64,000 bases of DNA from Saxibacter everestensis. Its GTDB lineage: Bacteria; Actinomycetota; Actinomycetes; Actinomycetales; Brevibacteriaceae. Positions 23,781 through 61,960 of the stretch are shown in pieces (positions within the stretch are counted from its first letter, which is position 1; every line of letters starts with the position of its first letter). Position numbers and translations under genes: made by a program. The stretch spans positions 897,856 to 961,855 of the forward strand of contig NZ_CP090958.1 in NCBI RefSeq assembly GCF_025787225.1, read 5' to 3'. The notes under the pieces were generated by a model that worked only from the letters and a program-made list of their open reading frames with translations, made no database searches and was not told where the DNA came from.

Positions 23781-23817
23781 GAAGCCCGTCTCCATTAATG
23801 GAGACGGGCTTCTTTTT
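23781..23817 (+). terminator. Terminator of the tRNA-Gln/tRNA-Glu unit
   Basis: Perfect 32-bp palindrome (23781-23812) with arms GAAGCCCGTCTCCATT and its complement, followed by TTTTT. Begins 5 nt after tRNA-Glu. Confidence 0.95.
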
Positions 23818-43767: not shown

Positions 43768-43971
43768 GTGGCTGTTCCAAAGCGGAAACTTTCGCGCAGC
43801 AACACCCGCCACCGTCGGTCGCAGTGGAAGGCCACCGCGCCAACCCTGGTGAAGACTGTTGAGAACGGTCGCGTTGTGTACTCGCGCCCCCACCACGCGA
43901 AGGTCGTGGAAGACTCGGCTGGCACCGCGCTGTTCCTGGAGTACAAGGGCCGCAAGGTCGCCGACGCCTAA
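43768..43971 (+). CDS. rpmF: 50S ribosomal protein L32
   Basis: [21 protein letters not shown] start is diagnostic of L32. GTG 43768, 2 nt after the DUF177 stop, gives 67 residues. No cysteines: the CxxC pairs of zinc-binding L32 are absent, so this is the zinc-independent form. Followed 12 nt later by rnc. Confidence 0.97.
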
Positions 43972-43983
43972 TCGAGCCAGTTC

Positions 43984-44724
43984 GTGACATCGCCTAAAAA
44001 GGTGCGCGATCTTGCTCGTGCGGACGACGCACAGCTTTGTCAGCGTCTCGGGGTCAACCTTGACCCCGAGACGCTTTCGCTTGCCCTGACGCATCGCTCC
44101 TTCGCCTTCGAGAACGGCGGGCTGCCGACAAATGAACGCCTGGAGTTCCTCGGCGACTCCGTGCTGGGCCTGGTCGTCACATCGGCGCTCTACAACGACA
44201 ATCCTGGGCTGCCGGAGGGCCAGTTGGCCAAGCGCAGATCTGCCGTGGTCAACACACGTGCCCTGGCAGGCGTCGCCCGTCGGCTGAGTATCGGCGATCA
44301 CCTCTACCTGGGTAAAGGTGAGGAAGCCACCGGTGGCCGCGACAAGGACTCGATCCTTGCCGACAGCGTCGAGGCGCTGATCGGCGCCACCTACAACACA
44401 CTTGGCATGGCCGCCGCGCACGACCTGGTGCACCGGTTGATCGACCCGTTGCTGGACAACGCCGAGAAACTCGGGGCCGGGATGGACTGGAAGACCAGCC
44501 TGCAGGAAGCCAGCTCCGGCTACGGCCTTGGCGTGCCCGTGTACGCCGTCGAGGGTGCCGGCCCCGACCACAATCGGGTGTTCACGGCCACAGTGCTGCT
44601 CGGAGAAGACCGTTGGGGCACCGGAAGCGGAAAGTCTAAGAAGGAGGCGGAGGCGGTAGCCGCCGAATCCGCAATCAACGCCTTGGCGGCCGCGTTCGGC
44701 GACGCAGCCGGTCAGGATGCCTGA
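43984..44724 (+). CDS. rnc: Ribonuclease III
   Basis: Double-strand-specific endoribonuclease for rRNA and mRNA processing. Signature [14 protein letters not shown] (about 49-62), second acidic site [18 protein letters not shown] (about 118-136), and a C-terminal dsRNA-binding domain (about 165-240: [30 protein letters not shown]). 246 residues, GTG start. Overlaps mutM by 8 nt. Confidence 0.97.
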
Positions 44725-56900: not shown

Positions 56901-57039
56901 AGCTAGCTGTACCCGGTGTGCTTCAGGCCCTCTAAATCTGAGGTACGTGCCGTGTCCATGTAGTCCATGACTCGTAGCCAACCCCACGGCTATGTCTCGC
57001 CAGACTCAACAAATCACAGAACCAGGAGACACCACCCAA

Positions 57040-57456
57040 GTGGCAGTCAAAATTCGTTTAAAGCGTTTCGGCAAGATTCGCGCCCCGTTCTACCGAGTTG
57101 TCGTCGCCGACGCACGCACCAAGCGTGACGGCCGCGCCATCGAAGAGATCGGGATGTACCACCCACTTCGTGAGCCATCGCTCATCGAGATCAACTCCGA
57201 GCGGGCACAGTACTGGCTCAGCGTTGGCGCACAGCCGACCGAGCAGGTCGCCGCTCTGCTGAAGATCACCGGTGACTGGCAGAAGTTCAAGGGCCTGCCC
57301 GGCGCCGAAGGAACTCTTCGCCAGCCAGAGGCCAAGGCAGAGTTCGTTGCTCCGAGCGGTGAGTCGGTTGTGCGTGAAGCCGTCACCCCGAAGAGCAAGA
57401 AGTCTGAGGAAGCTCCGGCCGAAGAGGCAAGCACAGAAGAATCCACAGAGGGCTGA
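57040..57456 (+). CDS. rpsP: 30S ribosomal protein S16
   Basis: [31 protein letters not shown] is the S16 signature at the N-terminus. GTG 57040 is chosen since the longer frame adds non-homologous residues; AGGAG is 11 nt upstream. 138 residues, with a Glu/Ala/Ser-rich C-terminal extension (about 90-138) typical of actinobacteria. First gene of rpsP-khpA-rimM-trmD. Confidence 0.96.
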
Positions 57457-57458
57457 CA

Positions 57459-57692
57459 ATGCTGTCTGAAGCACTCGAACACCTGGTCAAAGGCATCGTA
57501 GACAACCCTGACGATGTCGAGGTCCGCGCGAAAGAAAGCCGCCGCGGCCAGTTGCTGGAAGTTCGGGTGCATCCGGACGATCTCGGCCGGGTGATTGGCC
57601 GCGCCGGACGCACAGCGAAAGCACTGCGCACCGTCGTGACCTCCCTAGCCGGAAACGAGCCGGTGCGGGTCGATCTTGTGGAGACCTGCTAG
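57459..57692 (+). CDS. khpA: KH-domain RNA-binding protein
   Basis: 77-residue single KH domain with the GXXG loop in RVIGRAGRTAKALR (about 44-57). Position between rpsP and rimM is conserved. In relatives KhpA pairs with KhpB and affects cell division and RNA stability. ATG starts 2 nt after the rpsP stop. Confidence 0.93.
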   Translation: MLSEALEHLVKGIVDNPDDVEVRAKESRRGQLLEVRVHPDDLGRVIGRAGRTAKALRTVVTSLAGNEPVRVDLVETC

Positions 57693-57717
57693 AAGAACGA
57701 CGCATGAGTGAAGAAGC

Positions 57718-57753
57718 GACTTTCGACTCCGAACGGAGCTCAAGGTCGCTTCT
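57718..57753 (+). terminator. Hairpin between khpA and rimM
   Basis: AGCGACTTTCGA... and the later AAGGTCGCTT share complementary AGCGAC/GTCGCT arms, followed by CTTTGCTTTT. A T-rich stretch follows the right arm, as in a terminator, but the stem is interrupted. Confidence 0.4.
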
Positions 57754-57815
57754 TTGCTTTTAGCGCACTCTCTGCCCCCAGTGGACGAATCACCGAAGAT
57801 GAACTAAGGACGACG

Positions 57816-58331
57816 ATGAATGTTGTTGCACGGATCGGCAAGCCGCACGGCATCCGTGGCGAGGTGACCGTCGAGGTGCGCACCGACGCGCCCGACCAGC
57901 GGTTCGTAGCCGGCGCCGGGTTCGCCACGCTTCCTGACCGGGGGACGCTGACGCTCAAATCGGCCAGATGGCACAACTCGCGTCTTCTGCTGACCTTCGA
58001 CGAACTGTCCGACCGGAACCGCGCCGAGGAGTTTCGCAACACCGAGCTGCTTGTCGCGGCCGACGACATCGTCGACGAGGACGACGCCTGGGACAGCGAT
58101 GAGCTGGAGGGGCTGACCGTTGAGATCGAGGATGCCGACGGCCGCCGGAAGGTCGGCGAGGTCCTTCGGGTCGATTACGGCGTTGCACAGGACCTGCTGG
58201 TCTTCCGCCACGTTGCAGGTCACGAGGTGCTCGTGCCGTTCGTGGAACAGATCGTTCCTGAGGTGGACGTCGACGCCGGCCGGATTCTGCTCGATCCTCC
58301 GGGCGGTCTGCTCGACCCGCCGGACGCTTAA
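57816..58331 (+). CDS. rimM: 16S rRNA processing protein RimM
   Basis: 30S maturation factor binding S19. [24 protein letters not shown] start, then [21 protein letters not shown] and a PRC-barrel C-terminal domain (about 90-165). ATG 57816 with AAGGA 5 nt upstream gives 171 residues; the frame from 57708 adds a non-homologous segment. 123 nt after khpA; a palindrome at about 57718-57753 could be a weak terminator or attenuator. Confidence 0.95.
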
Positions 58332-58345
58332 GGAGTTTGGCAGGT

Positions 58346-59134
58346 ATGAGACTAGATGTGCTCTCGATCTTCCCGGATTACCTCGCGCCGTTGCGGCTCT
58401 CACTGATTGGTAAGGCCCAGGCGGCTGGGACGATCCGGCTTTCGGTTCACGATCTCCGCGACTACACCCATGACCGGCATCGCACAGTTGACGACACTCC
58501 GTACGGCGGCGGTGCCGGCATGGTGATGCGGCCGGAACCGTGGGGGGAGGCGTTCGACGATCTGCTGTCGACTGCGGACGGTGATCCACGTCCGCTGGTG
58601 ATAGTGCCGAGCCCGGCGGGAATACGGTTCAACCAGCAGCTGGCCCGTGAACTGGCGATCGAGCCGTGGCTCGTCTTTGCCTGCGGTCGCTATGAGGGCA
58701 TCGATCAGCGGGTGTTCGATCACACAGCGACAGTGGCCAGGGTCATCCCGGTCAGCCTGGGTGACTATGTGCTCAACGGGGGAGAAGTCGCCGCGATGGC
58801 GATGATTGAGGCTATCGCGCGCCTGATCCCCGGTGTCGTGGGCAACCCTGAGTCACTGACCGAAGAATCGCACGAAGACGGTCTGCTCGAGTATCCGGTG
58901 TACACCAAACCTTCGACCTGGCGCGGGCTGGCAGTTCCGGAGATACTGCTCTCCGGCAATCACGCAAAAATCGACCGGTGGCGGCGCGACGAGTCGCTGC
59001 GCCGGACTGCCCGACAGCGCCCCGACCTGCTGCAGGAGCTTCCGGCAACGGAGCTGGACAAGGCAGACCTCGCCATCCTGGCCGAGCTCGGGTTCACACC
59101 AGGGGACGACGGCCGGATCCGCGCTCACATCTGA
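58346..59134 (+). CDS. trmD: tRNA (guanine(37)-N(1))-methyltransferase
   Basis: SPOUT methyltransferase preventing +1 frameshifts at proline codons. [12 protein letters not shown], the [18 protein letters not shown] loop, [13 protein letters not shown] and the knot [15 protein letters not shown] are diagnostic. ATG 58346 with AAGGAG 10 nt upstream; the TTG at 58337 is too close to it. 262 residues, about 10-20 longer than E. coli TrmD. 14 nt after rimM. Confidence 0.96.
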
Positions 59135-59333
59135 CGATTTCGGCTCGCAGGCGATGCTGTGGCAGAATTGAGCCTTGTGTCTGCCGATGGCGCCCTGCCA
59201 CAGGGGAGTCGTCATCTACTGGCTGCGGTTTGGCAGCTGATGGCAGACAGACTCTCACTTTGACAATGCAGGCCTTTGAGTTCTGCACGTGAAAATCGCG
59301 GGTGGCCTGTGGCACCTGCAGGGAAGAGAAACA

Positions 59334-59675
59334 ATGCACAAGCTTGATGCTCTAGATGCCGCCTCGCTGCGGTCCGACGTACCGGACTTCCGTCCCGGCG
59401 ACACGCTGAAGGTACACGTTAAGGTCGTGGAAGGCACCCGCTCGCGCGTGCAGGTCTTCCAGGGTGTCGTCATCCGCCGTCAGGGCCACGGCGTACGCGA
59501 GACGTTCACGATCCGCAAAATCAGCTTCGGCGTTGGCGTCGAGCGCACCTTCCCGGTGCATTCGCCGGTCCTCGACAAGATCGAACTGCTGACTCGCGGC
59601 GACGTTCGCCGCGCCAAGCTGTACTACCTGCGCAAGCTGCGCGGTAAGGCCGCGAAGATTCGCGAAAAGCGCTAA
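59334..59675 (+). CDS. rplS: 50S ribosomal protein L19
   Basis: [21 protein letters not shown] start and [20 protein letters not shown] are diagnostic. ATG 59334 with GGGAAGAG upstream; 113 residues. Preceded by 199 nt of leader without a gene, which may carry its own promoter and L19 regulation, though I see no known leader motif. A strong terminator follows 34 nt after the stop. Confidence 0.96.
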
Positions 59676-59689
59676 TCAGCCACGCACGC

Positions 59690-60355
59690 GTGACATCAGC
59701 TTCAGAAGAGAAAACCCCCAGGGCTCGTCCTCGGGGGTTTTCTTGGCGTCGATGGCCGGCATGGTTGCTGGTGTCGATCCTGCTGGCCGCCCTGATTCGT
59801 GGATTTCTTGTGCAGACGTACTCGATTCCGTCCGATTCGATGGAGCCCACGCTTTCGGTCGGTGATCAGATTGTGGTCTGGCGCCCGGCGTACACGATCT
59901 CCGGGCCTGAGCGGGGTGACATCGTTGTCTTCGACGGCCGTGGCACGTTCATTCCCGACGAGGAAGTTCCAACCGGGCTGGCCGCGCTCGGCTCCGAGGT
60001 GGGCTCCTGGTTCGGCCTCACGAACAGAAATGCCTATGTGGTGAAACGGGTGATCGGCGTCGGTGGCGATCGCATCACTTGCTGCACCGATGGCGGCAAA
60101 CTTGTAGTCAATGGCGAACCACTGGACGAACCGTACGTCCAGAATGGCGACGTTCCCAGCGAACGCGACTTCGACGTGACGGTGCCAGAGGGCAGACTGT
60201 GGCTGATGGGCGATCATCGCAGTGACTCGGCAGATTCCCGCGCCCATCTGGGCGACCCCGGCGGCGGCATGCTGCCTGCCGGACGGGTGGTCGGGAAAGT
60301 CACCGGAATTGTGCTGCCACCGGCTCGCTTCGGTACGGTAAAACACGGGTCCTAG
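59690..60355 (+). CDS. lepB: Signal peptidase I, first copy
   Basis: Type I signal peptidase with one N-terminal membrane helix (about 25-43), catalytic Ser in PSDSMEPTL (about 48), catalytic Lys in VVKRVIGVGGDRI (about 117) and the GDHRSDSADSR box. GTG 59690 (221 residues) is the only start giving a normal cytosolic N-terminus, yet the rplS terminator lies over codons 7-19; TTG/GTG codons at about 59762-59770 are alternatives that would leave almost no cytosolic part. Second signal peptidase gene follows. Confidence 0.88.
   Translation: MTSASEEKTPRARPRGFSWRRWPAWLLVSILLAALIRGFLVQTYSIPSDSMEPTLSVGDQIVVWRPAYTISGPERGDIVVFDGRGTFIPDEEVPTGLAALGSEVGSWFGLTNRNAYVVKRVIGVGGDRITCCTDGGKLVVNGEPLDEPYVQNGDVPSERDFDVTVPEGRLWLMGDHRSDSADSRAHLGDPGGGMLPAGRVVGKVTGIVLPPARFGTVKHGS
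59710..59744 (+). terminator. Strong terminator overlapping the 5' end of lepB copy 1
   Basis: Ten-bp stem GAAAACCCCC/GGGGGTTTTC (59710-59719 with 59733-59742), extended by AGG/CCT in the loop, then TT. Located 35 nt after rplS and inside the annotated lepB frame. Confidence 0.88.
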
Positions 60356-60392
60356 CCGGTCGGCACGCGACCATCAGTTAAGAGGAGAACGA

Positions 60393-61112
60393 GTGGCAAG
60401 GAATATCGAGGCGGCTTTCGCCGACGAACTTGCCCGGTTCGACCGTCCGTCGCCGCGGGTACGGGTGGCAGGCTGGTTGCGTGAACTCGCCTTCATCGTC
60501 GTCGCGGCGCTCCTGCTATCGGTGCTGTTCAAGCTGTTTCTGGTGCGGGCCTTTTACATTCCATCCGCATCGATGGAATCCACACTTGATGTCGACGACC
60601 GGATCCTGGTCAACCAGCTGTCGCCTGGGCTGATGCCGCTGGAGCGAGGCGACATCGTGGTGTTCAACGACCCGGGCGGCTGGCTGCCGGAGACCGAGCA
60701 GGAGAATTCCGTGGTCGGTGGTGCGCTGACCTTCATCGGGCTGCTGCCGCAGGATGCCGGCGAGCAGGTGGTCAAGCGCGTCATCGGTCTTCCCGGAGAC
60801 CGGATCGAATGCTGTTCCGCTGATGGGAACCTGATCGTCAATGGTCAGCCGATCAGGGAGAAGTACGTCCACCGAGGCTCACCGCCGTCAGATATTGCCT
60901 TCGACGTCGAGGTGCCCGACGACCGGATCTGGGTGATGGGTGACAACCGGTCCAACTCGGCGGACTCCCGTTACCATATGGACCAGCAGGGGCACGGAAC
61001 GATTCCGGTGTCGTCGGTCGTCGGCACAGTCTTCGTGATTAACTGGCCACTGGAGCGATTCCGCTGGATCTCCAACCCTGCCGATGTGTTCGCGCACGTC
61101 CCGGAAAGTTAG
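60393..61112 (+). CDS. lepB: Signal peptidase I, second copy
   Basis: Paralogue of the preceding gene: TM helix (about 32-55), catalytic Ser in PSASMESTL (about 61), Lys in VVKRVIGLPGDRI (about 128), GDNRSNSADSR box. Lacks an unusual insertion; 239 residues, GTG with AGAGGAG 5-8 nt upstream. Tandem lepB genes are known in high-GC Gram-positives (several in Streptomyces) and may divide substrates. Followed 5 nt later by rnhB. Confidence 0.95.
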   Translation: MARNIEAAFADELARFDRPSPRVRVAGWLRELAFIVVAALLLSVLFKLFLVRAFYIPSASMESTLDVDDRILVNQLSPGLMPLERGDIVVFNDPGGWLPETEQENSVVGGALTFIGLLPQDAGEQVVKRVIGLPGDRIECCSADGNLIVNGQPIREKYVHRGSPPSDIAFDVEVPDDRIWVMGDNRSNSADSRYHMDQQGHGTIPVSSVVGTVFVINWPLERFRWISNPADVFAHVPES

Positions 61113-61117
61113 CCGCA

Positions 61118-61960
61118 ATGTCCGCAGCACCCACCCTGAAACTGGAACGATCGCTGATGGCAGAAGGCCACCGGCTGATCGCTGCCGTTGACGAAGTCGG
61201 ACGCGGTGCGCTGGCCGGGCCGGTGAGCGTCGGCGTTGTCCTCGTCGATGTGACGGTCGCCCGCAGCCTGCGCGGTGTGCGCGATTCCAAGCTACTGCCA
61301 CCGGCGCGGCGCGAGGCGCTCGTCGACGGAATCCGTCGCTGGTCGGTTGGTTGCGCGGTCGGTCATGCCGGGCCGGAGGAAATTGACGACGTCGGGCTCA
61401 CAGCCGCATTGGGCATTGCCGGACGACGTGCCCTGGGTCAGTTGCAATCCGTTCCGGACGTCGTCCTGCTTGACGGCAACCATGACTGGATCTCCGGCCG
61501 CGGTCTTCAGCTGGACCTGCTCGGCAGCGCGGACGTTGACGACACGGCCAGTGTGCATGTGCCCCCGGTAGTCACGTCGATCAAGGCGGATATGCGCTGC
61601 TCGTCGGTCGCAGCTGCCAGCGTGCTCGCCAAGGTCGCACGCGACGCGATCATGGTCGAGAGCGCGCAGCAGTTCCCGGGTTTCGGCTGGGAGGTAAACA
61701 AGGGCTATGGCACGGTCGCCCATCGCGAGCGGATTGCCGCGGTTGGTCCCACGCCTTTGCACCGGCAGACCTGGCGACTGATTGCGGATCCCGTCGTTGG
61801 CGCTGGCGACGGGCTTGGTGAGGACCTCGGTGGTGGCGTCGGCGAGGACCTTGGTGACGCCGTCGGCGAGGACCTTGGTGACGCCGTCGGCCTCGCCGCA
61901 GACGGCGGGTTGTCCGATCTGCCGGGGCAGGCTGTGCGGCCCATTGGCGTAGAGGCATGA
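61118..61960 (+). CDS. rnhB: Ribonuclease HII with a repetitive C-terminal extension
   Basis: Removes ribonucleotides and RNA primers from DNA. Catalytic residues D25/E26 in AAVDEVGRGALAG, Asp in VVLLDGNHDW (about 117) and the KVARDAIM region. The conserved fold ends around residue 222 (HRQTWRLIADPV); the following about 58 residues are Gly/Asp/Glu-rich and contain three 8-residue units GEDLG-type encoded by 24-bp tandem repeats. Extension is not part of the family. ATG 61118. Confidence 0.93.
   Translation: MSAAPTLKLERSLMAEGHRLIAAVDEVGRGALAGPVSVGVVLVDVTVARSLRGVRDSKLLPPARREALVDGIRRWSVGCAVGHAGPEEIDDVGLTAALGIAGRRALGQLQSVPDVVLLDGNHDWISGRGLQLDLLGSADVDDTASVHVPPVVTSIKADMRCSSVAAASVLAKVARDAIMVESAQQFPGFGWEVNKGYGTVAHRERIAAVGPTPLHRQTWRLIADPVVGAGDGLGEDLGGGVGEDLGDAVGEDLGDAVGLAADGGLSDLPGQAVRPIGVEA
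61817..61888 (+). repeat. Three 24-bp tandem repeats in rnhB
   Basis: Units at 61817-61840, 61841-61864 and 61865-61888; the last two are identical, the first diverged. In frame, encoding eight residues each (GEDLGDAV). Confidence 0.95.

Follow-up and report, generated by a model that had tools for sequence, protein, structure and literature searches.

A terminator-like hairpin within the first codons of the signal peptidase gene lepB is conserved among relatives and probably belongs to the preceding ribosomal protein gene rplS

Which gene owns a terminator-like hairpin that lies within the first codons of a signal peptidase gene, a short distance behind the gene for a ribosomal protein? The question arises at the rplS–lepB junction of Saxibacter everestensis, within a 64,000 nt stretch of DNA (hereafter the window), the relevant features of which are collected in Table 1.

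Table 1. Features of the rplS–lepB junction and the in-gene palindrome of rnc (window coordinates)
Feature	Position	Strand	Basis or remark
rplS (ribosomal protein L19)	59334..59675	+	NCBIfam TIGR01024, E 2.1e-47; stop TAA 59673-59675
lepB, first copy (signal peptidase I)	59690..60355	+	TIGR02227, E 2.2e-37
Hairpin, 12-bp stem	59708..59744	+	codons 7-19 of lepB; folding, stem scoring, pattern search
U-tract TTTTCTT	59738..59744	+	sequence; largely paired to A-tract in 12-bp stem form
lepB, second copy	60393..61112	+	TIGR02227, E 6.3e-39; GTG 60393
In-ORF palindrome, 15 bp	44042..44075	+	codons ~20-31 of rnc (GTG 43984)

The frame from GTG 59690 opens 14 nt after the rplS stop and encodes 221 aa, with the TIGR02227 match covering residues 24–210. 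The only later in-frame starts ahead of this conserved part, TTG 59765 and GTG 59771, both fall within the membrane helix, so that GTG 59690 is very probably the true start of lepB. The preliminary description of this DNA had entertained a start further downstream, and this alternative fails both on the position of the later candidates and on the 52 of 60 family junctions in which an in-frame lepB start precedes the strong stem. That the terminator-like hairpin sits within the probable true lepB start is confirmed, and the location and frame first proposed for it are borne out by sequence and folding. Neither a Shine–Dalgarno (SD) sequence nor a TAnnnT box is visible on reading the sequence upstream of GTG 59690. 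The two lepB genes stand in tandem (59690–61112), with a strong SD-like AGAGGAG (60381–60387) at the second copy only, and we infer that both copies are co-transcribed.

The core of the hairpin comprises 10 Watson–Crick pairs between GAAAACCCCC (59710–59719) and GGGGGTTTTC (59733–59742), extended by two extra outer pairs and by inner AGG/CCT pairs, and its first base lies 32 nt past the rplS stop. The two elements of an intrinsic terminator, a stable GC-rich stem–loop and a U-rich tract, are both present. Its minimum free energy (MFE) of -25.7 kcal/mol (z -2.9) is equalled in 1 of 200 shuffles, whilst the stem pattern, searched with up to 3 mismatches and derived from the hairpin itself, occurs once in the 64 kb and in 0 of 100 shuffles. 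Its billing as the best terminator in the region holds only roughly, as a scan of the window for stems with U-tracts ranks it 8th of 13 on the + strand and 5th on the - strand. The structure is thus also terminator-like when read on the - strand, the only strand on which a simple terminator scanner lists it; over 8 kb, this scanner finds terminator-like sites in no excess (4 found versus 5.1 expected). At the + strand score of the hairpin, 8 sites are observed in the window against approximately 2.8 expected per shuffled window. When set against synonymous recodings, the lepB start of the window gives p=0.023 by stem score (3000 recodings) and p=0.29 by window MFE (100 recodings). A covariance-model search of positions 57000–61200 against Rfam returned no match up to an E-value of 1. 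Taken singly, therefore, the hairpin of the window is good and statistically unremarkable, and it is conservation that makes the case.

For comparison, 249 loci were taken: 60 from the family of the window, 80 from a named set of LepB-like matches and 109 from the class, with rplS found in 246 and lepB in 240. The family set spans four genera, that of the window being represented by one genome; all 60 junctions were read, and rplS was found in every one. A strong stem within 300 nt of the rplS stop is present in 56 of the 60 family loci, versus 2.8 by shuffling, and the four below threshold (L002, which is the window, L004, L006 and L127) possess hairpins that are still visible by reading. No further start occurs between stem and membrane helix in 42 of the 52 junctions where lepB begins upstream of the strong stem; as with the other counts across loci, lepB starts here were picked by rule and the loci are related, hence the counts are not independent. 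In L007, L010, L130 and L135 the script finds no start upstream of the stem, L010 being misread, with the lepB motif far downstream. The family also contains the ordinary layout: in L130 and L135, the hairpin holds an in-frame stop and precedes the lepB ATG. By stem score, 55 of the 60 family loci, the window included, outperform their synonymous recodings at p<=0.05 and 47 do so at p<=0.01; the corresponding figures by MFE (100 recodings) are 54 and 48.

The peptides encoded at the N-terminus vary across relatives (ENATFGSRF, EDATFGSRL, EGATRSTGSRPRA, TTTGVPLRRRPWFL, EKTPSGNPRGFSW) with the hairpin being kept, and hairpin sequences turn over among family loci, as do the encoded peptides. Hairpin-encoding codons replaced under a retained protein N-terminus were named in the preliminary description as the pattern that would speak against it; what relatives display is the reverse, a retained hairpin under a changing N-terminus. 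Amongst 39 family loci with a GCGACC/GGTCGC core (one row of which, by inference L010, is out of frame), the third pair counted outward is G-C in 21, A-T in 16, G-U in 2 and mismatched in none, and the fourth is broken in 1. Both sides of this co-varying third pair are first codon positions, specifying Asp/Asn with Leu/Phe, so that amino acids change with it. On a tree built with L010 left out, the third pair changed only 3–4 times, with joint change in 3 of 4 independent pairs (p 0.25); such changes are too few for significance. Together, the family-wide recoding test and the paired changes support selection on the stem rather than on the protein, and related bacteria appear to keep the overlap although the hairpin would dictate part of the signal peptidase sequence. 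The T fraction at the stem end is 0.39 in the family, 0.24 in the named set and 0.27 in the class versus a background of 0.185, a purely descriptive comparison, and U-tracts are weak in many family hairpins (e.g. CCCTCGTGCGTC). In the 35 family loci where lepB starts with GTGCCG or ATGCCG, the second position of the hexamer lying 6 nt upstream is A in 33 and its sixth is T in 31, whilst its first is T in only 2.

With regard to loci outside the family, a strong stem within 300 nt of the rplS stop is found in 27 of 77 named loci (3.1 by shuffling) and 47 of 109 class loci (4.4 by shuffling), the class set being uneven in that 29 new loci were returned by search and 80 were picked for genus spread from the listed matches of 217 genomes. 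When internal stems are counted up to 100 nt past the lepB start, 38 of 173 non-family loci have a strong hairpin before lepB, 24 have one inside it, 1 has both and 110 have no strong hairpin in either place (Fisher p 0.009). Under a laxer threshold, double occupancy is seen in 2 loci (p 0.002). In the family it amounts to 0 of 59, or 6 of 59 under the laxer threshold. The median rplS–lepB gap of non-family loci is 81.5 nt with the hairpin before lepB and 44.5 nt with it inside, a tendency for the hairpin to move inside the next gene at short gaps. At p<=0.05, only 17 of 75 loci in the named set and 12 of 100 in the class surpass their synonymous recodings by stem score, and 15 of 100 in the class do so by MFE, figures on which an in-gene hairpin universal to actinobacteria is rejected. 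A genome-wide habit of in-gene terminators is likewise unsupported in a 464-kb sample (20 stretches plus the window, with 400 genes called by a crude script), where the 42 terminator-like sites scoring at least 19 divide into 25 intergenic, 8 sense and 9 antisense, and where, taking a distance of 120 nt, 5 sense sites lie near a start and 4 antisense ones near a gene end, which amounts to no clear excess near starts. The stricter stem rule of this sample omitted the lepB site, and only the rnc site scores at least 22 among sense sites near starts.

Some of these relatives possess a promoter-like box ahead of lepB. In Streptomyces (L033, L062, L082, L098), TAAGCT or TAGGCT stands 7–9 nt before the lepB ATG, with the hairpin next, inside the gene, an order shared by Janibacter (L079, L081, L103, L109), Pedococcus (L061) and Phycicoccus (L073); in Tetrasphaera (L057, L070), the hairpin lies upstream of the promoter-like box. 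Overall, a TAnnnT box 5–12 nt before the lepB start occurs in 16 of the 29 unique non-family loci with a hairpin past the start (counted with no upper distance, such that 5 of the 29 stems lie more than 100 nt past it), with 1 box at 13–38 nt. Such boxes are also found in 13 of 38 loci with the hairpin before lepB and in 36 of 98 with no strong hairpin, and so are not tied to the hairpin. SD sequences, counted for internal hairpins up to 110 nt past the start, accompany 2 of 24 non-family lepB starts with the hairpin inside versus 14 of 39 where it precedes lepB (p 0.018, a value that ignores kinship), whilst family counts show no contrast (3 of 29 inside, 0 of 7 before). The low number of SDs where the hairpin is internal would fit a role in keeping rplS transcripts from translation past their end.

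The window holds a second in-gene hairpin, the rnc palindrome, which follows rpmF (stop 43969–43971; named from a conserved motif by script rather than by family search) and is the strongest terminator-like hairpin of the window. It measures at least 15 bp in 29 of the best 30 family loci among the 60 genomes searched, the window's included, and 11 bp in the other, and in family loci it mostly encodes LG(V/I)DIDPET. In 29 further class loci, the best rnc stem is centred at about the same place in 11, only 3 having at least 11 bp, and the four f22-family loci amongst these 29 show no rnc stem at that place. By analogy with Streptomyces, the palindrome may be a site of RNase III autoregulation, or it may be a terminator of rpmF; it is not claimed to share the mechanism of the lepB hairpin. 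Elsewhere in the window, a terminator-like hairpin at 57712–57753 lies between a KH-domain-like gene and rimM (both named by eye), within the longest rimM frame and ahead of its likely ATG start, and a strong terminator at 23781–23812 is situated 3′ of what by eye appears to be a tRNA gene.

Comparison across loci establishes that the hairpin exists, that it lies in the lepB frame and that it is conserved as a paired structure, and supports its assignment to rplS. As judged from these sequences, it is probably the terminator or 3′-end hairpin of rplS, which at a short gap comes to lie inside lepB, with lepB being expressed by read-through. The 14 nt between the genes would leave no intergenic room, and the terminator would for this reason be placed in the first codons of lepB. 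The majority of rplS transcripts would then stop at the hairpin and a minority continue into both lepB genes, the outcome being abundant L19 and little signal peptidase. At loci of the Streptomyces or Janibacter type, lepB may be fed by the promoter-like box upstream of the hairpin, in which case its own transcripts would also have to cross it. Where the lepB start is devoid of an SD, rplS transcripts ending within lepB may escape ribosome loading and a non-stop fate. In E. coli, the terminator tR2 is fully efficient once it lies more than 27 nt beyond a stop codon (PMC4824070), and the tR2 results make a working rplS terminator with read-through the plain model; the coupling suggested in the preliminary description, whereby lepB expression would depend on translation at its own start, becomes the minority model. 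As to the weak U-tracts, a Streptomyces lividans study accepts U-poor 3′ ends as genuine, though leaky (PMC6742748).

Ownership by rplS is backed by the near mutual exclusion of hairpins before and inside lepB, by gap length and by T-rich stem ends, and is favoured because a single element found now before, now after the lepB start fits a movable rplS terminator. The rival view, that the structure is lepB's own and unrelated to rplS, acting as a promoter-proximal attenuator or as a hairpin for pausing or stability, is rather doubtful: in addition to this exclusion, hairpins are also found 3′ of rplS where lepB starts later, and the family stem keeps to the rplS stop (interquartile range 3 nt, a figure that includes shared homology). 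What speaks for a lepB element is the spacing in the 16 box-bearing non-family loci, where the hairpin centre lies 38–54.5 nt past the lepB start (SD 3.9 nt) and its distance from the rplS stop varies far more (SD 27 nt). This constancy may equally stem from shared ancestry, several of the loci being from Streptomyces or Janibacter, or from the hairpin occupying the first free place past a lepB promoter. Nor is a fixed spacing from rplS the rule, since hairpins before lepB lie nearer to the rplS stop than internal ones: where the hairpin precedes lepB, only 12 of 41 non-family loci (median 18 nt) and 1 of 4 in the family place it at least 27 nt from that stop, versus 49 of 52 in the family and 23 of 29 outside it where the hairpin is internal. 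The 27-nt ribosome shadow of E. coli is rejected on these counts as the cause of displacement, which lowers confidence in the rplS reading and raises it for an element of lepB. We favour rplS over lepB as the owner by a margin that is not large.

Other explanations concern what the hairpin does rather than whose it is. An RNase (e.g. RNase III) processing site, or a 3′-protecting hairpin, that separates the rplS and lepB messages is improbable, as a 12-bp stem such as that of the window would be short for an RNase III substrate and the stem end is enriched in T. In its favour, some family members have weak U-tracts and the window's rnc has its palindrome 3′ of another ribosomal-protein gene; moreover, RNase III of S. 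coelicolor cuts a stem–loop in the rnc cistron, as recounted in a review (PMC10126417). Translation-coupled antitermination, in which lepB ribosomes trailing RNA polymerase keep the hairpin unfolded and untranslated transcripts stop, is unlikely; with a leaderless lepB start, only lepB transcripts would be translated at this point, such that those from rplS would be stopped and those of lepB spared. This reading draws on the TAnnnT boxes and the few SDs of non-family loci with internal hairpins, and on precedents at pyrBI (PMC5021804, PMC4824070) and bmrB (PMC4191407). Against it, the boxes also accompany hairpins before lepB or no strong hairpin, the genome of the window is without visible box or SD, and, by analogy, an E. 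coli reporter with tR2 30 bp past the start saw termination cut by translation by only ~10% (PMC4824070). It seems similarly doubtful, or marginally more so, that the terminator of a highly expressed ribosomal-protein gene, lodged in the start of a leaderless or SD-less downstream gene, would stop transcripts arriving untranslated and spare those already read from their own 5′ end; were it so, rplS–lepB, and perhaps rpmF–rnc, would be the first members of a class of overlapping transcription units in which RNA structure dictates an N-terminus. Chance folding of a GC-rich 5′ coding region is hardly credible: the MFE test on the window genome by itself and the number of equally good sites expected in a shuffled window would allow it, but family-wide conservation and paired changes stand against it.

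If the hairpin is indeed a terminator of rplS, gene starts in compact actinobacterial genomes can hold the terminator of the preceding gene, terminator annotation restricted to intergenic regions would miss such elements, and some N-terminal codons would be constrained by RNA structure. Expression of signal peptidase I would, moreover, be set by read-through of a ribosomal-protein terminator.

In-frame terminators as such are already known (PMC4824070, PMC4191407). A natural terminator inside a downstream gene, or the rplS–lepB locus itself, was not found in the titles and abstract openings covered by a partial literature search, and a term search for 'rplS' in the texts of PMC8914203 and PMC4681348 gave no occurrence. 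The rplS–lepB hairpin resembles intrinsic terminators in its GC-rich stem, T-rich 3′ flank and location 32 nt past a stop codon, and departs from them in that it falls within the coding sequence of the gene that follows and in the poor U-tracts of many relatives. With actinobacterial leaderless transcripts, which account for about 20% of ORFs in S. lividans (PMC6742748), it has in common the TAnnnT box that 16 relatives with an internal hairpin show 6–9 nt ahead of lepB, a box not seen in the window's genome. Ribosome-mediated attenuators of the pyrBI, bmrB and trp type similarly harbour a terminator within a translated frame (the lepB frame being predicted); theirs, however, are short leader peptides with regulatory input, whereas the frame of lepB is that of a structural gene, a 221-aa signal peptidase, rather than a short leader-peptide frame ending near the attenuator. 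Closest in layout is the tR2-in-ORF reporter of Li et al. (PMC4824070), which likewise places a terminator 30 bp past a start codon behind an upstream gene. That construct is an artificial E. coli plasmid with a working start site, whereas the lepB case is natural, conserved and devoid of an SD.
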